The notes under the pieces were generated by a model. It saw only the letters and a list, made by a program, of their open reading frames with translations, was not told where the DNA came from and ran no database searches. From Erythrobacter sp. (GTDB lineage Bacteria; Pseudomonadota; Alphaproteobacteria; Sphingomonadales; Sphingomonadaceae): a stretch of 64,000 nucleotides of DNA. The translations under genes and the position numbers were made by a program. Location: assembly GCA_029937545.1 (NCBI GenBank), contig JAPYPR010000003.1:186001-250000 (forward strand). Reading direction: 5' to 3'. This document shows positions 4,089 through 59,436 of this stretch, one piece after another. Positions within the stretch are counted from its first letter, which is position 1; each line of letters starts with the position of its first letter.

Positions 4089-5108
4089 CTACCACCCCGC
4101 AACGGGGCGGAAATCGTGGCGGCTCCACAGGATTGGCTCGCGCGGCTGGGCGGGGCGGTTCCACAGCGCCTCGAAGAAGGCGCTCGTGATATGCCAGCTC
4201 TTCTCCAGCCCGCTCACGCGCGTGCGCTTGTCCCAGGCCAATTGCCCACGGTTCAACACCTTGCGCCCGATCGCGCCGTAGATATTTGCCGCAGCCAGCA
4301 CCGCCCAGCGCTGCCGGAAACGCAGCTTTTTCGCGCCCAGCTTGGATGCTTCCTCGTGCTTCTCCATCAGCGCGATCAGGCGCGGCATCAGGCTGGCGAG
4401 GCGGAAGCGGTTTTCCGGCAGGGCGTGCTCGCCGGCTTCCCAGCCCATCTCGTCGAGCCAGGTCTTCGGGAGATAGCAACGCCCGGCATCGGCATCCTCC
4501 ACGATGTCGCGCGCGATATTGGCGATCTGGAAAGCAAGGCCGAGGTCGCAAGCGCGGTCCAGCGTCTCGCCGTCGTTCTTGCTGACGCCCATGACGACCG
4601 CCATCATGATCCCGACCGATCCGGCAACGTGATAGCAATAGCGCATCATGTCGGCCTCGGTCGTCGGCTGCCAGCGCGTGGCATCGAGCGCGAAGCCGCC
4701 GATCATGTCGTTGGCCATGTCCCAGGTGAGGCCGGTTTCGTCGGCCACCATGCCGAAGGAGTCGAAAGCGAAGTCGGCAGTCGGCTGCTCGTCCAGCGCG
4801 CGTTTGGTCAACACGCGGATCGCCTGCACGCGGTCCTCTGCGCTTTTCAGATCGCCCTGATCGCCGAGCGGGCCGCCCTTGTCCTGATTGTCGGCAATAT
4901 CGTCGCAGCGGCGGCACCAGGTGTAGAGCAGCCAGCTGCGCTCGCGCGTGTCGCGGTCGAACAGCTTGGAGGCCGCAGCGAAGCTTTGCGAGCCTTCTTC
5001 GATCGCTTCCTTGGCGCGCGCGATGAGATTGCTCCGGTCGCGTCCGCCACCGGCACGCGTCGGCGTCGCGCGGATCTTGCTGGTCGTCAGGGGGCGGGGC
5101 GTGCTCAG
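4089..5108 (-). CDS. crtB: Phytoene synthase
   Basis: Joins two geranylgeranyl diphosphates to make phytoene, the first carotenoid-specific step. The frame holds the first aspartate-rich motif in TWCRRCDDIADNQ and the second in FQIANIARDIVEDADAGRCYLP, both typical of squalene/phytoene synthases. The first ATG/GTG/TTG in frame is GTG 4829, which would remove the first motif, so the real start must be upstream. The most plausible candidate is CTG 5108-5106, overlapping the stop of the LOG gene and preceded by AAGG at suitable distance; CTG 5090 is another. From 5108 the product is about 339 residues. Last gene of the crtY-crtI-LOG-crtB operon. Confidence 0.88.
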   Translation of the reverse strand: MSTPRPLTTSKIRATPTRAGGGRDRSNLIARAKEAIEEGSQSFAAASKLFDRDTRERSWLLYTWCRRCDDIADNQDKGGPLGDQGDLKSAEDRVQAIRVLTKRALDEQPTADFAFDSFGMVADETGLTWDMANDMIGGFALDATRWQPTTEADMMRYCYHVAGSVGIMMAVVMGVSKNDGETLDRACDLGLAFQIANIARDIVEDADAGRCYLPKTWLDEMGWEAGEHALPENRFRLASLMPRLIALMEKHEEASKLGAKKLRFRQRWAVLAAANIYGAIGRKVLNRGQLAWDKRTRVSGLEKSWHITSAFFEALWNRPAQPREPILWSRHDFRPVAGW

Positions 5109-5686
5109 AGGTCGTCTGCCTTCATCTGGAAGATCGGCGTATGCGCCTCGTAGCTTGCCATTTTCTTTAGAAGCCCGCCGAGATTGTCGTCGGCGATCAG
5201 GATGTTCTGGTGGGCCGGGCGTACGAAGCCGACTTCGGCCATTGTGCGATTGAACGCGATGAGGTCGTCATAGAAGCCGTAGGCGTTGAGCAGGCCGACC
5301 GGCTTCTGGTGATAGCCGAGCTGCGCCCAGCTCATCGCTTCCCACAATTCGTCCATCGTCCCGACCCCGCCGGGAATGGTCACGAAGCCGTCTGAGAGAT
5401 CGGTGAAGCGCTGCTTGCGCTCGTGCATGCCACCCACCGTGTAGAGTTCGGTGCAATCGTGGTTCGCGACTTCGGAATTCGCGAGCGCATCGGGGATCAC
5501 GCCGATAACCTCGCCCTTCGCCTCCAGCGCACCGCGTGCGACCGCGCCCATCAGGCCCAGCCGCCCGCCGCCATAGACAACGCCGATGCCCCGCTCTGCC
5601 AGCCCGGCGCCGACATCATAGGCGAGCTGGATATAGCGCGGGTCTTCGGGCGAGGCCGAACCGCAATAGACAGCGAGGCGGTTCAC
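5105..5686 (-). CDS. LOG family protein (TIGR00730, nucleoside-monophosphate phosphoribohydrolase-like)
   Basis: Predicted Rossmann-like hydrolase that removes the base from (cytokinin) nucleoside 5'-monophosphates. At 193 residues it is standard length for the family. The signature PGGVGTMDELWEAMSW and an N-terminal GGGRLGLMGAVARGAL phosphate-binding stretch are both present. The start is GTG 5686, whose GTGA overlaps the crtI stop; the stop overlaps the presumed crtB start, so all three are translationally coupled. Its position inside a carotenoid operon is unexpected, and no biochemical link to carotenoids is obvious. Natural substrate unknown. Confidence 0.9.
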   Translation of the reverse strand: MNRLAVYCGSASPEDPRYIQLAYDVGAGLAERGIGVVYGGGRLGLMGAVARGALEAKGEVIGVIPDALANSEVANHDCTELYTVGGMHERKQRFTDLSDGFVTIPGGVGTMDELWEAMSWAQLGYHQKPVGLLNAYGFYDDLIAFNRTMAEVGFVRPAHQNILIADDNLGGLLKKMASYEAHTPIFQMKADDL

Positions 5687-7233
5687 TCGACCAGATCCTC
5701 GACCATCAAGCCAGCCGTCGCCTTCGCGCTGCCGACCACGCCGGGGATCCCAGCGCCCGGATGCGTGCCCGCGCCGACGAGGTAGAAATTGTCGATCACG
5801 TCATCGCGATTGTGCCCGCGGAAGAACGCGCTTTGAGTGAGAACCGGCTCGAGGCTGAAGGCGCTGCCCATATGCGCGTTGAGATCGCTCGCGAAATCCT
5901 TCGGCGCGTAATGGAATTTGGTTTTTATGCGCGAATGGATGTCGGGGATCAGGCGGCGCTCGATCTCCTCGAGAATGCGTTTCTCGAGGATCGGGCCCAT
6001 CTCCTCCCAGTCGACTGCCAGCTTGCCCATATGGGCGACCGGGACCAGCGCGTAGAAGGTGCTCATCCCCTCGGGCGCCATCGACGGATCGCTGACGCTG
6101 GGGTGGTGCAGGTAGATCGAGAAATCCTCCGGCAGCACGCCATGGTCGTAAATGTCCTCCAGCAAACCTTTGTAGCGCGGGCCGAACAGGATCATGTGGT
6201 GCGGAATGCCGGGCCAGGTGCCCTCGATCCCGAAATGGACCACGAACAGGCTGGGGCTGAATTTCTTGCGCGCGAGCTTCCCGGCATAGGATTTGCCGCG
6301 CTTGGAATCTGACAGGAGATTGCGATAGCTGTGCACGATGTCCGCATTGCTGGCGACGGCATCGAAGCGCTCGCGCCAGCCGGACGCGGTCTCGACCTCG
6401 GTCGCCTTGGTGCCCAGCGTATGCACTTGCACCACCGGATCGCCGACGCGCATGGTGCCGCCGATGCGCTCGAAATGGCGGATCATGCCTGCAACCAGCC
6501 GGTTGGTACCGCCTTTGGCCCACCAGACGCCGCCGTCCTTTTCCAGCTTGTGAATCAGCGCGTAGATGCTGCTGGTCTTCATCGGATTGCCGCCGACCAG
6601 CAGCGTGTGGAAGCTCAGCGCCTCGCGCAGTTTCTCGTTTTCGACATAGCTCGACACCATCGAATAGACGCTGCGCCAGGCCTGTTGCTTGGCAAGTGCG
6701 GGGGCCGCCTTGAGCATCGACTTGAAGTCGAGGAAGGGCTTGTGTCCCAGCTTGACGTAGCCTTCCTGATAGACCGCTTCCGAATAGTCGAGGAAGCGCT
6801 GGTATCCGGCGACGTCAGACGGGTTGAGCTGCGCGATTTCGGCGAACAGCTGCTGCTCGTCGTTGGAATAGTCGAAATTCGTCCCATCGGGCCAGTTCAG
6901 CCGGTAGAACGGCATGACCGGCATGATCTCGACGTCTTGCGCCATATCGTGCCCGGTCAGCTCCCATAGTTCGCGCAGGCAGTCGGGATCGGTGATGACG
7001 GTCGGCCCGGCATCGAAGGTGAAGCCGTCCTTTTCCCAATAGTACGCACGGCCACCGGGTTTGTTGCGACCCTCGATCACGGTGGTCTGAATACCGGCGG
7101 ACTGTAGCCGGATGGCAAGGGCGAGCCCGCCGAAGCCGGAGCCGACGACGCAGGCCGTCTTTCCGGTCGCGGGCACGCCCGCAACGTTGGTTTCACCGGT
7201 GGCGGAGGGCGGTGTGTTCGTTTCGGCGTTCAT
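5683..7233 (-). CDS. crtI: Phytoene desaturase
   Basis: FAD-dependent desaturase converting phytoene to lycopene in several steps. The start is ATG 7233, which shares one base with the crtY stop (TGATG) and is preceded by AGGG; the product is 516 residues. The N-terminal dinucleotide-binding fold VVGSGFGGLALAIRLQSAG begins near residue 30. The C-terminal carotenoid-desaturase signature is present (FYLVGAGTHPGAGIPGVVGS). The stop overlaps the LOG start by four bases. Second gene of the coupled carotenoid operon. Confidence 0.96.
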   Translation of the reverse strand: MNAETNTPPSATGETNVAGVPATGKTACVVGSGFGGLALAIRLQSAGIQTTVIEGRNKPGGRAYYWEKDGFTFDAGPTVITDPDCLRELWELTGHDMAQDVEIMPVMPFYRLNWPDGTNFDYSNDEQQLFAEIAQLNPSDVAGYQRFLDYSEAVYQEGYVKLGHKPFLDFKSMLKAAPALAKQQAWRSVYSMVSSYVENEKLREALSFHTLLVGGNPMKTSSIYALIHKLEKDGGVWWAKGGTNRLVAGMIRHFERIGGTMRVGDPVVQVHTLGTKATEVETASGWRERFDAVASNADIVHSYRNLLSDSKRGKSYAGKLARKKFSPSLFVVHFGIEGTWPGIPHHMILFGPRYKGLLEDIYDHGVLPEDFSIYLHHPSVSDPSMAPEGMSTFYALVPVAHMGKLAVDWEEMGPILEKRILEEIERRLIPDIHSRIKTKFHYAPKDFASDLNAHMGSAFSLEPVLTQSAFFRGHNRDDVIDNFYLVGAGTHPGAGIPGVVGSAKATAGLMVEDLVE

Positions 7234-8417
7234 CAGGATCCCTCTTGGACCAGCGGAGCGCCCTTGCCAAGCAAGGCGCCGATTGCCGCCGGTATGGGTA
7301 TCGGCGGCTTGCCGATCAATACACGTGCCTTGTCCGCCAGAGTGGAGTGTCCCGCATAGAAACGCTCCACCAATGGCTCCGGCAATCGGTAGAAATGCGC
7401 GAATATGCGGAAGCGTTCCTCCGGCCGCGCACCCTGGAAAAGCATGCGGCCGAGCGCCCGATAGAAGCTGGTTGCGCGCCAGTGATCGCGGGCACGTTTG
7501 TCGATCAGCGCCGCGAGTTGTTCTCCCGGCAGGGTCGCTTCGCGCGCGATGGCAAGCGCATTGTCGACGGCGAACGGCAACGTGTAACTCGTCAATGGGT
7601 GGACGAAGCCGCCGCGCGCGCCTGCGCGGACCACGCCGGGAGGGCCGATGTCGCGCCGGTAAGCGGTGAAATCGCCCCCGGTGAGGACCGGCAGGACCCC
7701 GGTTTCGCCGCCGACGATCTCTCCCTCCCAGCCGTGCTCGCGGCAATAGTCGTCGATCCTGCCCGACAGGGCGCTGCGATCCAGCACCGGATCGTCGGCG
7801 TAATAGGTATCCTCGACGAACAGCTCCTTTGCGCCTAGCGGGAGGGTATAGACGAAGCGATAAGCCGCGTGCTGGCGAACCCGGGCGTCCATTACGATCG
7901 GGCGCGTCATGCCATGCGCGGCAGGCAGCTTGATATCGCGGCCCATAAAAACCTGCCATCCGCCGCGCAGGTGCGGCGAGGGAACGGCATTGCGGCAGTC
8001 TATCACGACGCGCGCCGGCACATGCTCTCCGCTCTCCAGCGTCACACCATCAGGCGCAATGTCAGCGACGGGGCTCAGCAACCGCAGCGTTTCCTGCGGC
8101 AGCTCGCGCCGCAGATCGGCATCGAAATCCCGGCTCGCGATGGAATGATAGGTCGAGGTGAGCGTGCGGTCGATGTCGGGAAAACGGACTTCGTATCCCT
8201 GATTCCATTCGACCTGGCGGCAGTTTGCCAGCAAGGCCTTGCCAGCGGCGTCGAGATCGCTGTCGAACCAGCTCCAGCGGTGATTGCCGCCGAACACGTC
8301 GCCGCTTTCGAACAGGGCGAGGCGCATTTCCGGATGAGCGCGGTGGACTGCCAGTGCGATCAGTCCCCCGGCGAGCCCTCCGCCCACGATTGCCATGTCG
8401 ATCATGCGCCCGTTCAT
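7233..8417 (-). CDS. crtY: Lycopene beta-cyclase
   Basis: Cyclises both ends of lycopene to give beta-carotene. The 394-residue product opens with a dinucleotide-binding motif (MAIVGGGLAGGLIALAV) and has the conserved CrtY core GGFVHPLTSYTLPFAV near residue 270 together with a VEDTYYAD segment. ATG 8417 is used; MIDMAIV at 8402 is an alternative start. It is the first gene of the minus-strand crtY-crtI-LOG-crtB operon, so the promoter should lie in the 115 bases separating it from the divergent mipA-like gene. No crtE, crtZ or crtW is present in the window. Confidence 0.93.
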   Translation of the reverse strand: MNGRMIDMAIVGGGLAGGLIALAVHRAHPEMRLALFESGDVFGGNHRWSWFDSDLDAAGKALLANCRQVEWNQGYEVRFPDIDRTLTSTYHSIASRDFDADLRRELPQETLRLLSPVADIAPDGVTLESGEHVPARVVIDCRNAVPSPHLRGGWQVFMGRDIKLPAAHGMTRPIVMDARVRQHAAYRFVYTLPLGAKELFVEDTYYADDPVLDRSALSGRIDDYCREHGWEGEIVGGETGVLPVLTGGDFTAYRRDIGPPGVVRAGARGGFVHPLTSYTLPFAVDNALAIAREATLPGEQLAALIDKRARDHWRATSFYRALGRMLFQGARPEERFRIFAHFYRLPEPLVERFYAGHSTLADKARVLIGKPPIPIPAAIGALLGKGAPLVQEGS

Positions 8418-8532
8418 CGGGTGCAGGGCTTAGGCAGTTCGCGGTTCGGCGGCAATGCAGCTATTTTACGCAGGACACTGGAACCCGATCTGCGCTAAGC
8501 CGTTTGAGGCGAAAGACAAAGTAAGGGTATTC

Positions 8533-9426
8533 ATGAACAAGCTAGCCATCGCGGCCGCACTCGGCGCAGCACTTTCCGCATCCGCTGTCAGCGCGCAGGA
8601 CCGGGGGGAGCCGGCCGTGACTGCGAGCGCTCCGGAAGAAAACGCAGTCGAGGCAGCGGTTTTCGATGGCGATTTTCTCAGCGTCGGTGTCGGTGTGGCC
8701 TACGGACCGAGCTATTCCGGCTCGGACGATTACACTGCTTTCGTCTTGCCGATCGTGCAGGGCTCGCTCGGCGGAGTGGACATCAATCCGCGGCCTGCGG
8801 GCATCGCGCTCGATTTCATTCCCGATCCGGATGAGGGCGTGTCGTTCTCGGCGGGTCCGATGATCAAGCTCAACCGTGACCGGGTCGATGTCGATGACAT
8901 CAAGGACGAGATCGTTGCCCGCTACGGCGAGCTGGACACGGCGATCGAAGTCGGTCCCAGCGTCGGCGTGTCGTTTCCCGGCGTGCTGCACCGATACGAC
9001 AGTCTGAGTGTGAACGTCGATGCGGTGTGGGACATCAACGGTGCCCATGGCGGCCGGACGGTTAGCCCGAGCATCACCTACTTCACTCCGCTCAGCCGCG
9101 GCATCGCCGCCTCCCTCTCGGTCAGCGCGAACCATATCGACGACGATTACGCTGAATATTACTATTCTGTCGCGCCGCTTAATACGCTGGTCCCCGATCC
9201 GGACGCCCTACCGCTGTTCGAGGCCGAGGGCGGGTTCGAGAGCATCGGGACCAACGTCCTGCTGGCCTTCGACCTTAATGGCGATGTGACCGACGGCGGC
9301 CTCGCCCTGATCGGTTTGGCGAGCTATTCGCGGCTGCTCGGCGATGCGAAGGACAGCCCCTTCACCAGCATTCGCGGAAGCGCAGACCAGTTCCTGGTCG
9401 CGGCAGGGATCGGCTACACTTTCTGA
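8533..9426 (+). CDS. MipA/OmpV family outer membrane protein
   Basis: Predicted outer membrane beta-barrel of 297 residues. ATG 8533 is chosen because it opens a clean signal peptide (MNKLAIAAALGAALSASAVS-AQ). The mature part has the MipA/OmpV pattern: an early GVGVAYGPSYSGSDDY segment, alternating hydrophobic strands and a C-terminal aromatic residue (AAGIGYTF) typical for barrel assembly. A reading frame open further upstream adds no signal-like sequence. Function within the family (scaffold, stress porin) is unresolved. It is followed at once by a strong terminator. Confidence 0.85.
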   Translation: MNKLAIAAALGAALSASAVSAQDRGEPAVTASAPEENAVEAAVFDGDFLSVGVGVAYGPSYSGSDDYTAFVLPIVQGSLGGVDINPRPAGIALDFIPDPDEGVSFSAGPMIKLNRDRVDVDDIKDEIVARYGELDTAIEVGPSVGVSFPGVLHRYDSLSVNVDAVWDINGAHGGRTVSPSITYFTPLSRGIAASLSVSANHIDDDYAEYYYSVAPLNTLVPDPDALPLFEAEGGFESIGTNVLLAFDLNGDVTDGGLALIGLASYSRLLGDAKDSPFTSIRGSADQFLVAAGIGYTF

Positions 9427-9447
9427 GGTTTCTCAGCCTAACAAATC

Positions 9448-9475
9448 AAAAGGGCGGCCCGAGAGCCGCCCTTTT
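9448..9475. terminator. Bidirectional rho-independent terminator
   Basis: AAAAGGGCGGC pairs with GCCGCCCTTTT around a short CCGAGA loop. A-tracts and T-tracts flank both sides, so it can serve the mipA-like gene on the plus strand and the S9 peptidase gene on the minus strand, which converge here. Confidence 0.92.
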
Positions 9476-9480
9476 ATGTG

Positions 9481-11523
9481 TCAGCCTTCGTCTTCGGCTA
9501 TTTCCAGCGTCGGTCGCGCACTCGGCATTTGCGCGTCGCGATCGCCGGTCTTAAGATAGGTGTCGAACCAGCGCATCATCCGCAGGTTGTAGTCATAGCG
9601 CGCGGCGGCCTTCTGGTTGCCGTGGCCTTCGCCCGGATAGAGCACGAGGCGCACCGGCACATCGGGCTTGCGCACTTTTATCGAACGGTAGAGCTCGTAG
9701 CTCTGGCTGGGCGAGACACGCGTGTCTTCCTCGCCGTGCAGGATCAGCAGCGGCGTGTTGGCCTTGTCCACATGGTAGATCGGGCTGACTTCCAGCATCC
9801 CCTGCCAGTCGTCCCACGGCCACTTCCCGGAATGCACATTGTACATCTCGTACGGGATGTCGGTCGTGCCGAACTTGCTGATCTGGTTGGAAATGCCGAC
9901 GAACATCACCCCGGCGGCAAATTCGTCCGACAAGGCAGTCGAGGACCATGCCGTGGCATAGCCGCCATAGGAGCCTCCGGTCACCCCGACGCGGTCGGTA
10001 TCGGCAATTCCGGCCTCGACCAGCGCGCGCTTGGCATCGACCAGATCGGTGAATTCGGGATCGGTATAATTACCGGTGTGCTGCTTGGAAAAGGCCGTGC
10101 CATAGCCGGTGGAGCCGCGATAATTCGGCAGGAATACTGCGTACCCCTGACCGGCGGCGACCTGGCCCGGACCGCTGTAGCTGGTGTTCCAGCCATCGGA
10201 CTCGTGGGCTTCCGGTCCGCCGTGCACGTCGAGGATCAGCGGGGCGCCGCCGCGCGGGACGCCGCCGACCGGTTCGATCAATACGCCTTCTACCTGCTGG
10301 CCGTCACGCGCCGTGAAGGTCATCGTGCGTTGGTTGCCGAAGTCGATTTCCGATAGCCAGGGATTGTGCGTCGTCCACCGCTGGAAAGCATCGTTGGACC
10401 AGACGAACAACTCGGTTGGGTGCCGCGCGCTGCTGGCTTCGACTGCGATCGTGCCGCCGCCGGTCTCGAGGCTGGAGAGTAGCAGGTCGCCGCCCTCATG
10501 TTCTTCGGCAACGCTGCCATCGGCATCGTAGATACGCAGCGCGCTTTCCGCACCCTTGTGGATCACTGCGGCCAGGCGACCGTCGGCGAGCCATGCCGCA
10601 TCGACAGCGGCCTCCGGCGCGCCTGCGTTGAGCGCCCGATACTGACCGCTGGCAACATCGACGAGGTGGAGGGTCGTATCCGCTGGGTCGTTCATATCGA
10701 CGCCGGCGATCATCGACAGCTGCCGGCCATCGGGCGAAACTTCGATATCTCCCAGCTTGCCCGGAGTTTCGATCACCCGCAGGACCCGGCCATTCGTCAG
10801 ATCGAGCACGTGGGCGCGCTTGGACGTATAGGCATCGTTGATCTGCGGCGTCGGCGCGCTGTCGATCACCGCCGTGCGGCCGTCGGGCGCAACCCGGAAG
10901 GCGCTGACAAAGCCCGGAATGGTAACAGCGTGCGGATCGGCGTCCACTTCCTCGCCGACATTTGCGGCGAACAGGCGGTTGAGGCGGGCTTCTTCCTCAT
11001 AGACGATGGCGTTGAAGCCGGCCTTGGCCTCTTTCTCGCGTTCGGTGTCCTCTTCGGCACCGGCCAGCAGCCACACGCGCGAACCCTCGGGGGCCCAGGC
11101 GTAGGCGCGGACATCCGCGCCATCGACCGCGGCGAGCTTGCGCTGCGCACCGCCATCGACCGGAATGCCCCAGACCGCGCGGTCCTCGTCCTCATCGGCC
11201 CAGATGAAGCTGACCATCCGGCCATCGGGCGAAAACGCGATGGAGGACGCGCTGATGTCCTCGGGCAGGAACTCGCGTGTATTATTCGGGCCGTATGCCA
11301 TGCTGAGCTGGAGGCTGGTCGAACCGTTATCCTCGCCATCGGTTACGTCGGGCAGGCTGGCGGTGGTATAGGCCACCCGGCTGCCATCGGGAGAGACGGT
11401 GATCGTTCCCACGCTTTCCAGCTTGGCGACGTCTTCCGGGGTCATCGGCCGCGCTTGCGCTTGTGCGGCAAGCGATGCGGTGGCTAGAAGGGTTGCAGCA
11501 GTAGTCGCGGCGCGAAGGATCAT
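9481..11523 (-). CDS. Secreted S9 family peptidase (acylaminoacyl/dipeptidyl peptidase type)
   Basis: Exported serine peptidase of 680 residues. A signal peptide ends near AQAQA (residue 24), followed by a seven-bladed propeller region with TolB-like SPDGR repeats. The C-terminal alpha/beta hydrolase has Ser518 in GGSYGGYA, Asp600 in HGEEDTRVSP and His634 in GEGHGN. Similar enzymes release dipeptides or acylated residues from oligopeptides. The gene is divergent from the DUF885 peptidase gene with 181 bases between them, which suggests a shared regulatory region for peptide scavenging. Confidence 0.9.
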   Translation of the reverse strand: MILRAATTAATLLATASLAAQAQARPMTPEDVAKLESVGTITVSPDGSRVAYTTASLPDVTDGEDNGSTSLQLSMAYGPNNTREFLPEDISASSIAFSPDGRMVSFIWADEDEDRAVWGIPVDGGAQRKLAAVDGADVRAYAWAPEGSRVWLLAGAEEDTEREKEAKAGFNAIVYEEEARLNRLFAANVGEEVDADPHAVTIPGFVSAFRVAPDGRTAVIDSAPTPQINDAYTSKRAHVLDLTNGRVLRVIETPGKLGDIEVSPDGRQLSMIAGVDMNDPADTTLHLVDVASGQYRALNAGAPEAAVDAAWLADGRLAAVIHKGAESALRIYDADGSVAEEHEGGDLLLSSLETGGGTIAVEASSARHPTELFVWSNDAFQRWTTHNPWLSEIDFGNQRTMTFTARDGQQVEGVLIEPVGGVPRGGAPLILDVHGGPEAHESDGWNTSYSGPGQVAAGQGYAVFLPNYRGSTGYGTAFSKQHTGNYTDPEFTDLVDAKRALVEAGIADTDRVGVTGGSYGGYATAWSSTALSDEFAAGVMFVGISNQISKFGTTDIPYEMYNVHSGKWPWDDWQGMLEVSPIYHVDKANTPLLILHGEEDTRVSPSQSYELYRSIKVRKPDVPVRLVLYPGEGHGNQKAAARYDYNLRMMRWFDTYLKTGDRDAQMPSARPTLEIAEDEG

Positions 11524-46900: not shown

Positions 46901-47245
46901 ATGAAGGCGACGATCTGGCACAACCCGAAATGCGGCACCTCGCGCAAGACGCTCGCGATCCTGGAAAATCTCTCGAAGGTCGATGTGACCGTGGTCGAAT
47001 ATCTCAAGGACCCGCCATCGAAGGACAAGCTTGCCCAGCTCTATCGCGATGCGGGAATCTCTCCGGCGCAGGGCTTGCGGATGCGAGGAACCGACGCGGC
47101 GGAGCGCGGCCTGCCCGATGCCGACGACGACACGATACTGGAGGCAATGGTTGCCGATCCGATCCTGATCGAGCGCCCGCTAGTCGAGACCGATAAGGGC
47201 GCACGCCTGTGCAGGCCGCAGGATTCGGTCTTGGAAATCTTATAG
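46901..47245 (+). CDS. arsC: Arsenate reductase (glutaredoxin-dependent ArsC type)
   Basis: A 114-residue thioredoxin-fold protein. The catalytic Cys11 is in NPKCGTSRKTL; the MRGTDAAERG and ERPLVETDKGARLCRP segments fit ArsC, including the RPLV strand. It would reduce arsenate with glutathione/glutaredoxin. No arsR, arsB or acr3 gene is adjacent, so it may be a housekeeping ArsC-like protein. Divergent from the receptor gene. Confidence 0.85.
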   Translation: MKATIWHNPKCGTSRKTLAILENLSKVDVTVVEYLKDPPSKDKLAQLYRDAGISPAQGLRMRGTDAAERGLPDADDDTILEAMVADPILIERPLVETDKGARLCRPQDSVLEIL

Positions 47246-47263
47246 AGGGTTTTGTTTGGTGCG

Positions 47264-47395
47264 GTCAGGACATCCGTCCTGACCTTGCTATGCCGTCCCG
47301 CTCCCCCTCCCGACCACCCACGGCACGGTATTCTTTGGGTGGTCGGGAGGGGGAGCGGGACGGCATAGCCCGAGCCTTCGACGGATGTCGAAGGC
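47264..47395. repeat. Three-part nested palindrome with a perfect 34-bp inverted repeat
   Basis: A perfect 34-base inverted repeat has arms 47287-47320 (starts GCTATGCCGTCCCGC) and 47336-47369 (ends GACGGCATAGC) and a 15-base spacer. It is flanked by two smaller hairpins: GTCAGGAC/GTCCTGAC with an ATCC loop at 47264-47283, and GCCTTCGAC/GTCGAAGGC with a GGAT loop at 47374-47395. The cores of the two outer hairpins (GACATCCGTC and GACGGATGTC) are reverse complements, so the whole 132 bases are one large imperfect palindrome. It sits between the convergent arsC and MFS genes. Could be a non-autonomous mobile palindrome or a REP-like unit. Confidence 0.9.
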
Positions 47396-47442
47396 GCACC
47401 CAACAAGGAAAACGCGGATTCGCTTTCCCTACTCGACCAAAC

Positions 47443-53514: not shown

Positions 53515-54831
53515 TTACCAGAAGGTCTTGTTGAATTTGGTCACGTGAATCTCGAAGCGTTCGAGGTCGGGACCAACGAGCGCCAGTCGCGCCTGTTCGG
53601 CCAGTCGCTCCGCCTCCTGCTTGAGCAGAGCTTGCCGTCCTTCGTGGCCGATCGGCACGGCGGCATTGGCCAGCGTGTCCAGCATGACTTCCGCAGCTAG
53701 CGGGGATGTCGCCACGCCGCTGCGGATCGCGCCGAAACCCCGCTTTACGTAATGCGCGAAATCGTCGGGCAGGGGGATGACGGGGCATCCGTCTTCATCG
53801 TCTCCACAGATATGCTTGCGCAAATCGCGGCGACCGATTTCGGCAGTTGCCGCGCCGAGCCAATGGAGCGCGTTGATGGCGGTGAAAGGATCGTTGATGC
53901 CGGGCGACAATGCGCGCAGTCCGATCTCGACCAACTCGTCGATCAGGAACTGCGGATCCTGCTCCGGCGTGCGCGTTGCGCCCAGTGTGAAGCTTTCGCG
54001 GACACGATCCTCGACTTCCCCCGGATCGCAGCCGTCGACTTCGACCAGCACCATCTTGGGATGTACGAAGTCGCCAGTACGGACCTTCAGCGAGAAAGTG
54101 CAGCCTGCATCTTTCCCGATGGCTTTGAGGTCGGAGAAATCGATCATCTGTATGTAGCCGGTTTTCCACACCTCCAGCGGCTCGCCGCCCTTGGGTTCAA
54201 CAGGATCGGAGAAATCGTCTTCGACCGGATAGGTGTCCTTGATGGTTTCCAGCAGGCGCTCCCCGATCCCCTTCAGCACCTTGTTGATGCGGATGCTGGA
54301 GGGGATGTGGTTGAGGAAGAAAACAAGCACCGCCACGCAGAGCGCCAACAGGACGTATGCGACCAGTAGCGACAGTTGCGGGGTGAAGCCGGGCAGGGCG
54401 GTGGCACCGGCCGTTTCGATAGAAGCCGGCGTCTCGTCCTCGCCCCGCACCGCGCGCAGCACGATCAGCGCATAGACGAAGCTGCCGATGAAGGTCCCGA
54501 GGCTAAGCTGGTTGCCGCGATCTTCCATGAAATTGGTCAGCAGGCGCGGGCCGTAATTGCCGCTGGCATAAGCGACGGCGGCAATCGTGATGGAGAAGAC
54601 GGTCGAGGCGACGCCGATCATGCTGCCCGCCATGACGCTCAGCATGGTTGAAGCACCATCGGGTCGCGCCGGGATGATCCACCCGACGTCGTTGAGGAAT
54701 TCGGCGAAGCCCATCCGGTCGATCGTGACCATCGCGAAGGCGAGAATCGCGGCTAGGATGGAAAACAGCGCCGGATAGAACCAGTAATTGGCGTTCAGTC
54801 GCGACCAGAAAAAGCGGATTTCTGCGGTCAT
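53515..54831 (-). CDS. DUF2254 family membrane protein (intact copy)
   Basis: A 438-residue protein with four membrane helices in the first ~165 residues (NANYWFYPALFSILAAILAF, LSVMAGSMIGVASTVFSITI, LGTFIGSFVYALIVL, LLVAYVLLALCVAVLVF) and a large soluble C-terminal part with LSPGINDPFTAINALHWLGA, the hallmark of DUF2254. No experimental function is known. A second, broken copy lies directly upstream. Confidence 0.85.
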   Translation of the reverse strand: MTAEIRFFWSRLNANYWFYPALFSILAAILAFAMVTIDRMGFAEFLNDVGWIIPARPDGASTMLSVMAGSMIGVASTVFSITIAAVAYASGNYGPRLLTNFMEDRGNQLSLGTFIGSFVYALIVLRAVRGEDETPASIETAGATALPGFTPQLSLLVAYVLLALCVAVLVFFLNHIPSSIRINKVLKGIGERLLETIKDTYPVEDDFSDPVEPKGGEPLEVWKTGYIQMIDFSDLKAIGKDAGCTFSLKVRTGDFVHPKMVLVEVDGCDPGEVEDRVRESFTLGATRTPEQDPQFLIDELVEIGLRALSPGINDPFTAINALHWLGAATAEIGRRDLRKHICGDDEDGCPVIPLPDDFAHYVKRGFGAIRSGVATSPLAAEVMLDTLANAAVPIGHEGRQALLKQEAERLAEQARLALVGPDLERFEIHVTKFNKTFW

Positions 54832-54833
54832 TC

Positions 54834-55854
54834 TCAGCCTTCTGTTCCCGTCTGCTTCTCGAAGCCTTTCGCGAAAGCCTCGCGAATGTCGTGGCGGTCT
54901 TTGTCGAACTGCGCAACGGCGACGGCATGGTCGCTGAGGTCCTTTGCCAATTTGCGCAGCATGGCGACGAGGCCTTCGCTTCCGCCGTCAGCCTCTTTCC
55001 GCTCGGCATTCCTGGCGTAATTGTCGATCATGCGAATACTGACCGATGGATACTGGCATGCAGCCTGCCGGAAAGCGCTGAGGGGGTCGGCAAACAGGCC
55101 GCGGAAATCCTGACCGACGAGGATCAGCCACTCCTCGCCCTCCGGTGCGGGCACATGGGTCATCGGCGATATAGGTGCTGGTCTGGCTCTCGATGATTGC
55201 GGCCAGCTTGTCGGCGCAGGTCAGTGCCGTGTAGAAATCGTTGATGGCCGGCGACAGCGCGCGCGCCGCAATCTCGACGATCAACCGGATGCGGAAGACG
55301 ACGCCCTGATTGTCCGATCGATAAGCTCCGAGCGGGATGAGCCGCTTGATGTCGTGGCCGTCAAGCTCTGCCTCCGAACTGATAAGCCGCTTGCCCTTCA
55401 TGACGTGCTGTCCCGGCGCAACGTGGACGACGACCAGTTTCTGCTGACGTGAAAACGCTTTGCAGAAGCTCTGGATATCGACGTCTTCGACATAGCCTTC
55501 GCGCGGTGCGTAGCAGCTGTGTGGTAGATTGTGCTCGGGGCCGCTCGACCCAGCGGTCGATCAGCCGCACACCCAGATTGCCGGCCGCCATGCTCAGCAC
55601 GATCAGCGTGATGGAGAAGTACAGCGTGATGAACGCGGCGTTGATCCCGGCTGCAGCGCCGACGAAATCCTTGGCCGTATCGGATGTTTCGACCGTCGCC
55701 AGGTCGCGCGCCAGCAGCCATGCGGTACCGCCCTCGCGGTCGAGCCACATAGTATGCCGAGGGCCACCGGCATGGCGCCGATAACCGCGCAGACTGCCAG
55801 CAACCAATAATTCGCGAGCAGGCGGTGGGCGATCCACCCCGGCAAGCCGGTCAT
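54834..55854 (-). pseudogene. Frameshifted second DUF2254 gene
   Basis: Pieces of a DUF2254-like protein occur in order but in different frames: MTGLPGWIAHRLLANYWLLA (from 55854), then DFVGAAAGINAAFITLYFSI, then YAPREGYVEDVDIQSFCKAF with RALSPAINDFYTALTCADKL, then MTHVPAPEGEEWLILVGQDF to the stop at 54834. The frame changes lie near 55750, 55530 and 55160. The family motif LSPAINDFYTA mirrors LSPGINDPFTA in the intact neighbour, so this is a degraded tandem paralogue. Confidence 0.85.
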
Positions 55855-55969
55855 GCGAGTTGGTCGAACCAAGTTTTTTTCACCTTGAGTCACCGTCGAG
55901 AACTGACGGCAGATCGGGAACCTAACGTGCGGCTTCACATTTCGTTGCCACGTCCGTTCGCCACATCGA

Positions 55970-56181
55970 ATGGCGGCTTAGCAGGCACCGCCGAAGGTCA
56001 GCTACGGCGCGCATTTCGCTTTTATTCTCTACTTCCTGATGACTTCGATGCAGCTCGCGCCGCGCTATCGCGTGGTGCCGATCATTTCGGCGGTGGTCAT
56101 GGCCAGCGCGGGGCTAAGCCTGCTGTGCGAATTGCCCACATAGCAGGAAACCTACCAGTTCGTCGGCGGCATGTACCAGCC
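55970..56181 (+). pseudogene. Probable microbial rhodopsin remnant (helices A-B)
   Basis: The frame from ATG 55970 has a TAG at its fourth codon and another at 56141-56143. Between them it reads SYGAHFAFILYFLMTSMQLA, then PRYRVVPIISAVVMASAGLS, and after the second stop QETYQFVGGMYQPV. Helix B with the PRYR..P.ISA..M..AG pattern and the following loop-Q-x-Y-G-Y region are, from memory, like bacterial retinal-binding proteins. The retinal lysine helix is missing. Identification is inference; a non-rhodopsin membrane protein cannot be excluded. Confidence 0.5.
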
Positions 56182-56310
56182 GGTGGCACGCTGGCCGCAG
56201 CGGCAATCGCGCTGGCGGTATGGAGCGGCTGGCTCGCACTCGAACTTGCCGTGGCGGTCGCGTTCGGGATGGCGACGCCGCATATGCCGACCGAGCGGCT
56301 GGAGCGCTAG
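56182..56310 (+). pseudogene. C-terminal tail of a membrane protein, possibly blh-type carotene oxygenase
   Basis: Directly joined, in another frame, to the rhodopsin-like remnant is a 42-codon tail: a membrane segment LAAAAIALAVWSGWLALELA, then GMATPHMPTERLER and a TAG stop. The ending TPHM..ERL resembles the C termini of Brp/Blh beta-carotene 15,15'-dioxygenases, which usually lie next to rhodopsin genes. A deletion would have fused the two genes. This call is weak by itself and leans on the neighbour. Confidence 0.35.
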
Positions 56311-56311
56311 C

Positions 56312-58429
56312 CTACTCCGCTTCGTCGCCGATCTCGCGGTTGAGGAAAGCGAGCAGCATGGCTGCGCGCTTGGCATCCTCCTCGCGATCCGCGCCGACCG
56401 AATGCCCGCCCTCGATCGCTTCGCGATAATAGAACGGCTGGCCGAAGGCTTCGAGCTTCGCGGCGGCCTTGCGGGCATGGCCGGGGTGGACCCGGTCGTC
56501 GAGCGTCGAGAGATAATAGAACACCGCCGGATAGTCGGGATCGGGCTGCATGTTCTGGTAGGGCGACCATTCGCGCATGAAGGCCCAGTCCTCCGGCACG
56601 TCGGGATTGCCGTATTCCGCCATCCACGAAGCGCCCGCGAGCAGCCTGTTGTAGCGCCGCATGTCGATCAGCGGGCTGCCCGAGATGATCGCACCGTAGA
56701 GGTCGGGGCGCTGGTTAGCGACCGCGCCCACCAGCACGCCACCGTTCGAGCGACCCGAGGCGGCAATCTTGCCCGGCGTGGCAAGGCGCTGTGCCACCAG
56801 ATCGTCGGCGACCGCGTGGAAATCGTCGAAGCTGTTCTGGCGCTTGTCGCGCAGCGCATCCTCGTGCCAGCGCGGACCGTATTCCCCGCCGCCGCGAATA
56901 TTGGCGAGGACATAGGCATTGCCGCTTTCCAGCCAGAACAGCGACAGTGGCCCGCTGCGATAGGGCTCGGCAGTCAAATACTTCGGCGTCTGCGCCGCGC
57001 GGAAACCGCCATAGGCATGGATCAGCGTCGGCAGCGGACCTTCCGCGCCCTTGGGCCGCGCGAGGTAATAGGGAACTCGCGTGCCATCCTCCGAGGTGGC
57101 GAAGCGCTGCTCCACGGTAAAACGATCCGCGTCGAACTGCGCCGGCACGGAAGCGATCCGCTTCGCCGCGCCGTCGCCCGGCACCGCCCACAGTGTCGGC
57201 GGGGTGAGCATGCTTTCGATGGTCACGAACACGGTGTCGCCCTTGCCCGTGGTATTGGCGATCTGGATCGTGCTGTTGTCGGGCAAGTCCATGTCGCGGC
57301 TGAACCAGCCGGGATAGCCGGGGCGGACCTCGATCAGCTTGCCCGACACGTCATCGAGCACCTTGACCCACAGGGTATTCTCCGAGGTCGCAACCTCTTC
57401 GACCGCCTGCGTCTCGCTGGGCGAGAACACCACGAAAGGCTCGGCCTGTTTACCGTCGAGCACGTCCTGCAACGGCCAGGCGACAAGCCAACCGGCCTCT
57501 GCCTCCCGACTGGGGGTTGCGAGCGGCGAATTGAGCTTGGCGATGACATGGCCGTCGAGCACTGCTTCGAATTCGGCATCCTCGGGGAGCGGCAGCGGCA
57601 CGGTGCTGCCGTCCTCCCGCACGAGCGAGTATTTCGCCGTCCAGAAACTCGTTCCGCGCTGGATGAACCGCCAGCGCGTGTCGCCATCGAGCACGGAGAA
57701 GCCGGAGATACCGACATCGGTCTGCTCGCCTTCTGCAATCTGGCGGGCAGAGGCGAACTCGGTCCCGCGCTCCCACAGCTTCACGAGGCGCGGATAGCCG
57801 GAGTCGGTCAGCGAGCCTTCGCCCTCGTCGGTGCCCACGAACAGTGTGTCCTCGTCGAACCACGCGACGTTGGATTTCGCCTCGGGCAGGGTGAAGCCGC
57901 CATCGACGAAACTGACGGTGGTCACATCGAATTCGCGCACTACATCGGCATCGGTGCCGCCGGGACTGAGCGAGATGAGGCAGCGCTCGTATTCCGGGGC
58001 AAGGCAGTTCGCACCATGCCAGACCCAGCTCTCACCTTCGTCACGGCCGAGCTGGTCGACATCGATCAGCGTGCGCCATTCGGGCACCCCCGCCGTGTAG
58101 CTGTCGAGGCTGGCGATGCGCCACAGCCCGCGCGGATTGTCCGCATCGCGCCACAGATTGGTGACCATGTCGCCCTGGATCGCGTCGGGCATGGCGATCT
58201 GGCGATCGTCGTCGAGGATCTGCTTCGCCCATGCGCGCGCGACCGGATATTCGGGCGTCGCGGTCAGCACAGCCTCGGTATCCGCATTCCACTCGCGCAC
58301 TTGCTCAAGCGCCTTCTCGCCCTGGATTTCCTCCAGCCAGATGTAGGGATCCTCGGCATCGGTTTCCTGCGCCACCCCCGGAGACGATGCGAAAACGAGC
58401 GTTGTAGCGAGCGCCAGACGTGCGATCAT
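56312..58429 (-). CDS. Secreted prolyl oligopeptidase (S9A)
   Basis: A 705-residue exported serine peptidase cleaving after proline in short peptides. Signal peptide MIARLALATTLVFASSPGVA; N-terminal DPYIWLEEIQGEKALEQVR is the classic POP start. After a propeller the hydrolase has ANIRGGGEYGPRWHEDALR, Ser561 in SGRSNGGVLVG, Asp645 in TLDDRVHPGH and His676 in EGGHSVG. ATG 58429 is used because the signal peptide starts there. nadA lies 20 bases upstream on the same strand. Confidence 0.93.
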   Translation of the reverse strand: MIARLALATTLVFASSPGVAQETDAEDPYIWLEEIQGEKALEQVREWNADTEAVLTATPEYPVARAWAKQILDDDRQIAMPDAIQGDMVTNLWRDADNPRGLWRIASLDSYTAGVPEWRTLIDVDQLGRDEGESWVWHGANCLAPEYERCLISLSPGGTDADVVREFDVTTVSFVDGGFTLPEAKSNVAWFDEDTLFVGTDEGEGSLTDSGYPRLVKLWERGTEFASARQIAEGEQTDVGISGFSVLDGDTRWRFIQRGTSFWTAKYSLVREDGSTVPLPLPEDAEFEAVLDGHVIAKLNSPLATPSREAEAGWLVAWPLQDVLDGKQAEPFVVFSPSETQAVEEVATSENTLWVKVLDDVSGKLIEVRPGYPGWFSRDMDLPDNSTIQIANTTGKGDTVFVTIESMLTPPTLWAVPGDGAAKRIASVPAQFDADRFTVEQRFATSEDGTRVPYYLARPKGAEGPLPTLIHAYGGFRAAQTPKYLTAEPYRSGPLSLFWLESGNAYVLANIRGGGEYGPRWHEDALRDKRQNSFDDFHAVADDLVAQRLATPGKIAASGRSNGGVLVGAVANQRPDLYGAIISGSPLIDMRRYNRLLAGASWMAEYGNPDVPEDWAFMREWSPYQNMQPDPDYPAVFYYLSTLDDRVHPGHARKAAAKLEAFGQPFYYREAIEGGHSVGADREEDAKRAAMLLAFLNREIGDEAE

Positions 58430-58449: not shown

Positions 58450-59436
58450 TCAGACCCTGCCCAGATCGCCCTTGCCGATCGTGCCGCTGGCCATTTCGAG
58501 CATCTTGTCGAGGCTCTGCTTGGCTTTGAGGCGCAGGCCCTCCTCGATCTCGATGCGCGGTTCGAGGTCGCGCAGGCAGGCGTACATCTTCTCCATGGTA
58601 TTCAACGCCATGTAGGGGCAGATATTGCAACTGCAGTTCCCGTCTGCGCCGGGGGCGCCGATGAAGGTCTTTTCCGGCAGCGCCTTTTCCATCTGGTGGA
58701 TGATGTGCGGTTCGGTCGCGACGATCAGCGTGTCGCCTTCGAACGTCTTGGCATATTGCAGGATGCCGCTGGTCGACCCGACATAATCCGCGTGGTCGAT
58801 GATCGTCGGCGGGCATTCGGGATGGGCGACGACCGGCGCCTCGGGGTGCTGGCCTTTCAGCTTGAGCAGCTCGGTCTCGCTGAAGGCCTCGTGCACGATG
58901 CACACACCCGGCCACAGCAGCATTTCGCGGCCGAACTTGCGGCTCATATAGCTGCCGAGGTGCCGGTCGGGGCCGAAGATGATCTTCTGGTCTTCCGGGA
59001 TCTGGCTGATGATCGTTTCCGCGCTGGAACTGGTGACGATCACGTCGCTCAACGCCTTCACCTCGGTCGAGCAGTTGATGTAGGTCAGCGCGATATGGTC
59101 GGGATGTTTCTCGCGGAAGGCCTTGAACTTTTCCGGCGGGCAGCTGTCTTCGAGGCTGCACCCGGCATCCATGTCGGGTAGGACCACGATCTTTTCGGGG
59201 CTCAGGATCTTGGCGGTATCGGCCATGAACTTCACGCCGCAGAACACGATCACGTCGGCGTCGGTTTCGGCGGCCTTGCGGCTCAGCTCCAGGCTGTCGC
59301 CGACGAAGTCCGCAATGTCCTGGATATCGGCAGTCTGGTAGTAATGGGCGAGGATGATCGCGTTTTTCTCCTTGCGGAGGCGATCGATGGCGGCGAGCAG
59401 GTCTTCGCCGGTCGGAAGGTCGGTCTGGGCGGTCAT
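58450..59436 (-). CDS. nadA: Quinolinate synthase A
   Basis: Condenses iminoaspartate with dihydroxyacetone phosphate to quinolinate in NAD synthesis, using a [4Fe-4S] cluster. The 328-residue product has IILAHYYQTADIQDIADFVG, VIVFCGVKFMADTAKILSPE, AHPECPPTI and the C-terminal CSCNICPYMALNT segment, which supply the cluster cysteines. No nadB or nadC adjacent. The prolyl oligopeptidase gene follows. Confidence 0.96.
   Translation of the reverse strand: MTAQTDLPTGEDLLAAIDRLRKEKNAIILAHYYQTADIQDIADFVGDSLELSRKAAETDADVIVFCGVKFMADTAKILSPEKIVVLPDMDAGCSLEDSCPPEKFKAFREKHPDHIALTYINCSTEVKALSDVIVTSSSAETIISQIPEDQKIIFGPDRHLGSYMSRKFGREMLLWPGVCIVHEAFSETELLKLKGQHPEAPVVAHPECPPTIIDHADYVGSTSGILQYAKTFEGDTLIVATEPHIIHQMEKALPEKTFIGAPGADGNCSCNICPYMALNTMEKMYACLRDLEPRIEIEEGLRLKAKQSLDKMLEMASGTIGKGDLGRV

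Follow-up and report, generated by a model that had tools for sequence, protein, structure and literature searches.

Chloride-pumping microbial rhodopsins are the closest described systems to the locus reported here. Excerpts of the literature give NTQ as the motif of inward chloride pumps (PMC4999514) and as the mark of eubacterial chloride pumps (PMC4999514, PMC9728251). ClR of Nonlabens marinus (PDB 7cri and 6ab9) is the best PDB match of our rhodopsin fragment and, narrowly, of its intact sister. FR of Fulvimarina pelagi is another such pump, and the copy in that species matches 45 residues of the fragment at 84% identity. Relatives of the fragment share the NTQ motif and the retinal lysine of ClR-type pumps, whereas the copy described here is a pseudogene that lacks the start codon, codons 96–288, the NTQ motif and the lysine. 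A second point of comparison is the two-gene cassette of a rhodopsin and blh, the gene for a beta-carotene 15,15'-dioxygenase. The order, strand and adjacency of such cassettes recur in 14 carriers of the genus, in contrast to the present locus, where only 64 and 40 codons are left, brought together by a single deletion. The patchy distribution of bacterial rhodopsins is often read as horizontal gain, and a haloarchaeal study reportedly argues that rhodopsin patchiness reflects horizontal gain. Where a fossil occupies a conserved site and falls among carriers in the tree, it documents loss directly.

The window, a 64,000-nucleotide stretch of a genome deposited as Erythrobacter sp., holds such a fossil. 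The gene order at the site is lipB-OYE-EamA-DUF2254a-DUF2254b-rhodopsin-blh-(POP)-nadA, where lipB, OYE, EamA, POP and nadA, like MBL, are names that we presume from our own judgement without a family search. The site is almost certainly a decayed former rhodopsin-blh cassette, lost after the split from the four closest sampled relatives (G319, G344, G342 and G339). Its features are as follows:

53515–54831, minus strand: DUF2254a, the intact first DUF2254 gene and a flank of the site (PF10011, E = 3.2e-109; synteny)
54831–55921, minus strand: DUF2254b, the second DUF2254 gene, broken into three tblastn pieces in three different frames
55532–55537: junction J1, 263 bp lost inside DUF2254b
55992–55998: junction J2, 135 bp lost, comprising the upstream region and rhodopsin codons 1–31
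55994–56185, plus strand: rhodopsin remnant, codons 32–95 of 288, with 59 of 64 residues identical to G319
56141–56143, plus strand: nonsense mutation that turned the Trp codon TGG into TAG, assigned to the window branch by polarisation with G338
56186–56187: junction J3, 1281 bp lost between rhodopsin codon 96 and blh codon 234, both included
56188–56310, plus strand: Blh remnant, codons 235–274 of 274 and the original stop
56312–58429, minus strand: prolyl-oligopeptidase-like gene (POP), a flank (putative name; synteny with relatives)
58450–59436, minus strand: nadA-like gene, a flank (putative name; synteny)

The rhodopsin remnant (55994–56185, plus strand) translates as KVSYGAHFAFILYFLMTSMQLAPRYRVVPIISAVVMASAGLSLLCELPT*QETYQFVGGMYQPV, the asterisk being the in-frame stop, and, as read off the alignment, appears to comprise helices A and B and the B–C loop. 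Searched against PDB chains with X at the stop, the helix A–B fragment matched the chloride-pumping rhodopsin 7cri best (E = 4.6e-10), followed by the 'bacteriorhodopsin-like protein' chains 9tbd and 8qle at about 5e-5, xanthorhodopsin (1.3e-4 and 2.4e-4) and sodium pumps (about 0.006). A search with the complete rhodopsin of an intact relative, which belongs to PF01036 (E = 3e-31), retrieved the remnant at E = 2.2e-33. A chance resemblance to rhodopsin is ruled out by the PDB, genus-genome and intact-query E values. Pfam found nothing significant on the short rhodopsin and Blh fragments alone, the weak non-rhodopsin matches being LiaF-TM (E = 0.09) and DUF2079 (E = 0.13), so that profile-based annotation is likely to miss the remnant. 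Similarity to microbial rhodopsins holds over the helices that are left, and the full set of seven helices with a retinal-binding lysine is gone. Because the lysine lay within the deleted codons 96–288, the window copy is a remnant and no functional member of the family.

After a change of frame, the text continues as TLAAAAIALAVWSGWLALELAVAVAFGMATPHMPTERLER* (56188–56310), and 38 of its 40 residues are identical to the C-terminus of the G319 Blh, itself a member of PF15461 (E = 9.3e-14). The piece lies behind the rhodopsin, at the same site as in relatives, and the complete protein is missing, since codons 1–234 are deleted. The first-pass annotation, made from the letters alone, had proposed a fossil rhodopsin-blh locus in which rhodopsin helices A–B run, through a frame jump, into a tail like that of a beta-carotene cleavage enzyme. 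The frame-2 text and the jump into a tail ending in TPHMPTERLER and a stop are present exactly, and the remnants, the whole copies at the same site in relatives and the failure to find an intact copy bear the proposal out. The remnant had been placed from 55970, a start that needs correcting, as the coding remnant spans 55994–56310.

Neither the PF01036 and PF15461 profiles nor a search with the intact rhodopsin brought up a whole rhodopsin or Blh elsewhere in the window's own genome, a 99.99%-complete draft of 105 contigs. As PF15461 has no match, the genome yielded no Blh-type retinal synthase. Of the two kinds of search suggested at the outset, the profiles miss even the remnant, and the sequence searches match both rhodopsin and Blh.

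The relatives sampled, 60 genomes of what is apparently GTDB Qipengyuania, hold the intact counterparts. The fragment search hit the own genome and 14 of the 59 others at 73–94% identity (E down to 1.5e-23), and the carrier rhodopsins are open frames of 292–547 residues. PF15461 lies directly behind the rhodopsin in all 14 carriers, and in G319 the rhodopsin stop overlaps the blh start (TGATG); two further Blh matches lie elsewhere, one in G304 and one a second copy in G328. In the synteny comparison suggested earlier, all 13 carriers with long enough contigs hold the pair at this same site, beside the DUF2254 pair and nadA; the fourteenth, G345, sits on a 3.2-kb contig where only rhodopsin, blh and POP are visible. 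In six of the 13 (L050, L052, L055–L058) no POP separates blh from nadA, and the nadA-like gene occurs in 59 of the 60 genomes. Window DNA is collinear with the 20-kb carrier loci on both sides; identity to the four nearest relatives is about 91%, with long matches at about 90–93%. A stretch of about 200 bp (47240–47442) has no counterpart at the matching place in G319.

In other genera of the family, 16 of 19 close rhodopsin loci, the G026 fossil included, occupy the same DUF2254/nadA site; the exceptions are L131, L132 and L136, and L140 has nadA and no DUF2254a. Named genomes, scanned separately, yielded 17 loci. These include Qipengyuania sp. XHP0211 and XHP0207, Q. aestuarii GH1 and several 'Erythrobacter' records and, outside this group, Parapontixanthobacter, Aurantiacibacter, Fulvimarina pelagi, Sphingomonas baiyangensis and Novosphingopyxis. 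At L133–L135 and L137–L140, NTQ rhodopsins stand beside nadA with no blh or DUF2254b adjoining. In genus genomes without rhodopsin the neighbours often close up to 38–63 bp, with gaps reaching 1.7 kb. Diverse rhodopsin and Blh proteins, run by tblastn on these gaps at 46 loci, gave no match at E 0.01; two loci, L103 and L104, end at nadA, and the 44 informative ones cover 44 of the 45 rhodopsin-less genomes. The window is therefore the only rhodopsin fossil seen in the genus sample.

Three deletions and one nonsense mutation have broken the site. The length of J1 is 263 bp against G319, G344, G339 and G338, leaving out G342, which has a large deletion of its own there. J2, where GGT is shared at the junction, measures 135 bp against G319, G344 and G342 and 134 bp against G339, the comparison with G338 being unreliable. 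J3 measures 1281 bp in all five comparisons. The Trp replaced by the stop at 56141–56143 is kept in all 14 genus carriers. A further TAG at 55979–55981 also stands ahead of the start codon in the intact G319 locus and is thus not a lesion. The first-pass annotation had counted two TAG stops and ascribed the loss to an internal deletion and a nonsense mutation. The nonsense codon and a deletion are both there, the upstream TAG is ordinary sequence ahead of the gene, and the damage extends wider: the rhodopsin-blh pair has two deletions, the rhodopsin start falling within one of them, and the adjacent DUF2254 gene has another. Disabling lesions, relaxed constraint and whole orthologues at the same site together mark the copy as a pseudogene.

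A tree of six flanking proteins places the window as (G338,(window,(G342,G344,G339,G319))), with support of 1.0 at both nodes. L100, L103 and L104, with insufficient markers, were dropped from the tree, and none of the markers occurs in L053, L131, L132 and L136; as the genus does not form a single group in the block tree, only the well-supported window clade was used. Since the window is nested among carriers, its ancestor had both genes, and the loss falls on the branch leading to the window alone. In DNA the rhodopsin piece keeps 91–94% identity to the four sisters, which makes the loss recent on the scale of these species. Polarised with G338, the window branch carries four synonymous and seven nonsynonymous changes in the two remnants, the TAG included; one of the latter, a Met-to-Lys change in the codon at the J2 junction, was dropped before testing. 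The resulting nonsynonymous-to-synonymous ratio of 6:4, which rests on 10 changes, differs from 18:80 in five flanking genes (nadA, DUF2254a, OYE, EamA and lipB, with 44 unpolarised changes left out; Fisher p = 0.0076). Adding the DUF2254b pieces gives 14:8 (p = 5e-5, five unpolarised changes left out). This excess of amino-acid changes points to real decay.

We infer the ion once pumped from the close relatives. The motif was compared across 34 loci, namely the window, 14 loci from the genus and 19 from other genera, the last picked at 64% identity or more (fragments of it in G026) from a 298-genome search; more distant rhodopsins of the family (26–38% identity) are outside the count. Of these, 32 cover the helix C triad and the Schiff-base lysine, and every one has N, T and Q in the triad and K at the Schiff-base position, including L132, which has a stop elsewhere; the other two are the G026 fossil and the window, where the NTQ positions are deleted. 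Searched against the PDB, the intact sister matched the chloride pump 6ab9 (E = 8.9e-55) barely ahead of 8qle (E = 2.9e-53), which we take to be an Erythrobacter sodium pump. With a lead this narrow, the motif carries the claim on pump type. The function lost was likely light-driven inward pumping of chloride, with Blh providing the retinal. Light-driven proton pumping, originally named as the lost function, does not stand against NTQ and the retinal lysine in every one of the 32 close copies, and a proton pump was rejected on that motif, with chloride pumps leading for the fragment as well. That the window holds the remnant of a proton-pumping (or sodium-pumping) rhodopsin is accordingly very improbable, even though rhodopsin-blh neighbours are typical of proton pumps too (in an excerpt of PMC13043013), the remnant itself has no NTQ motif, and 8qle, which is not labelled a chloride pump, scores near the chloride pumps with the intact sister. 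Against these points, the fragment places chloride pumps clearly first (4.6e-10, the next kind at 4.9e-5), and every close copy with the motif has NTQ.

The genome was seen as a draft of 105 contigs without read data, which keeps assembly error as a formal alternative. An intact cassette collapsed in the draft is nevertheless exceedingly improbable, because three deletions and a nonsense change fall within 1 kb, the excess of amino-acid changes is spread over the pieces, and collapse does not produce scattered substitutions; the locus also lies inside a 276-kb contig with collinear flanks. Just as hard to credit is a new small gene or regulatory element. A 161-residue open frame (55825–56310) does exist in the Blh frame, but the rhodopsin part is out of frame in it, the junction it spans lies at a deletion that the five aligned relatives do not have, and the pieces evolve under relaxed constraint, on which grounds a new small gene was rejected. 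The origin of the cassette is a more evenly balanced question. It may, at slightly less than even chances, have been exchanged into the window clade at this site, and so not be ancestral to the genus, before being lost again. The clade is nested among rhodopsin-less species and its DUF2254b groups with other genera (G130 and G026; support 0.93–0.99), whereas the cassette occupies the same site in 13 of 13 informative genus carriers and in 16 of the 19 loci from outside the genus, and the deeper branching is not resolved in the rhodopsin tree (support 0.70). Distances in the rhodopsin and block trees are correlated (r = 0.66, 28 loci, 0 of 2000 permutations), which indicates broad agreement only.

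Under the preferred reading, a decayed rhodopsin-blh cassette, the site would once have held an NTQ-type rhodopsin, probably an inward chloride pump, and blh, whose enzyme would cut beta-carotene into retinal for the rhodopsin. After the split from the four closest relatives, all of which keep the rhodopsin and three of which keep a whole blh, selection on the cassette would have relaxed; the reason for this, like the order of events, we infer. Deletions took the rhodopsin start and the stretch from its codon 96 to blh codon 234, the nonsense mutation struck the Trp ahead of that stretch, and the divergently transcribed neighbour DUF2254b decayed too. What is left yields no rhodopsin and no retinal synthase. 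The genes crtB, crtI and crtY, which act in the established beta-carotene pathway, lie in the same window (4092–8429, minus strand), as had been noted earlier:

4092–5267, minus strand: crtB, an open frame (Pfam SQS_PSY; no internal stop)
5689–7236, minus strand: crtI (Pfam Amino_oxidase; no internal stop)
7239–8429, minus strand: crtY (Pfam Lycopene_cycl; no internal stop)

With all three present, beta-carotene can probably still be made, and they would presumably have been kept for other uses. The window DNA preserves a record of the loss of one means of light use in a bacterium, and the locus offers a testable case in which light use was abandoned and the carotenoid synthesis genes were kept. 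The photosynthetic reaction-centre family Photo_RC has no match in the window's own genome and occurs in eight of the 60 genus genomes. Two of these, G319 and G338, hold reaction-centre genes together with the rhodopsin cassette, a possible dual light use unlike the window strain.

Titles and abstract openings of the papers that the literature searches brought up hold no report of this locus, of a Qipengyuania rhodopsin pseudogene or of DUF2254 with rhodopsin, and an excerpt of PMC9239080 has nothing on lost rhodopsins. The same cassette appears, from its sequence, to decay in three other genomes, one of them (G026) clearly independently. In G026 (L141, 8473–9684), a one-contig genome of another genus in the family, the fossil lies at the same nadA site as that of the window, rhodopsin codons about 74–226 are deleted and blh is split in two frames; its breakpoints differ from those of the window, hence its independence, and its DUF2254b has no internal stop, unlike that of the window. 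The sister G342 (L048) is a case of early decay of the same locus, with an intact rhodopsin and a CAG to TAG change at blh codon 214; its blh lies at 10678–11499 and its DUF2254b, with a large internal deletion, at 8894–9697. In G100, one rhodopsin copy with NTQ has a TAG at codon 28 (L132, G100:C7, 8107–8970). That copy has blh and DUF2254b at a site without nadA, and the genome also has an NTQ rhodopsin (L133) beside nadA with no blh. As G342 and the G100 copy are apparently environmental assemblies, their single stops are weaker evidence. Further decay in the family, clear in G026 and indicated by single stops in G342 and G100, suggests that the cassette is easily lost.

DUF2254b, about 25% identical to its neighbour DUF2254a and, in its intact G319 form, a member of PF10011, is a possible third component. 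In the genus it accompanies all 13 informative rhodopsin carriers (as pieces in L048 and L059) and 10 of 43 rhodopsin-less genomes, a count that leaves out L053, L100, L103 and L104 (Fisher p = 6e-7, a value made too small by the relatedness of the genomes). At the 19 loci from other genera, 11 of the 12 that hold both rhodopsin and blh have it, counting the G026 fossil, and none of the seven that hold rhodopsin alone do. It also occurs with rhodopsin-blh where no nadA was seen, at L131 and L132 (within about 8 kb) and at L113 and L117 (within 3 kb), and it is broken both in the window and in the sister with the truncated blh, G342. A strict bond is made less likely by its absence from the flanks read in Fulvimarina, Novosphingopyxis and L136 and by its retention in ten rhodopsin-less genomes. 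That DUF2254b, an uncharacterised membrane protein, partners the pump in a three-gene module with the chloride-pump rhodopsin and blh is a tentative idea, which we consider rather unlikely, and the linkage is offered as a lead towards a partner of such rhodopsins. In L059 (G343), DUF2254b (8438–9683, oriented) consists of two overlapping pieces, possibly through a frameshift.
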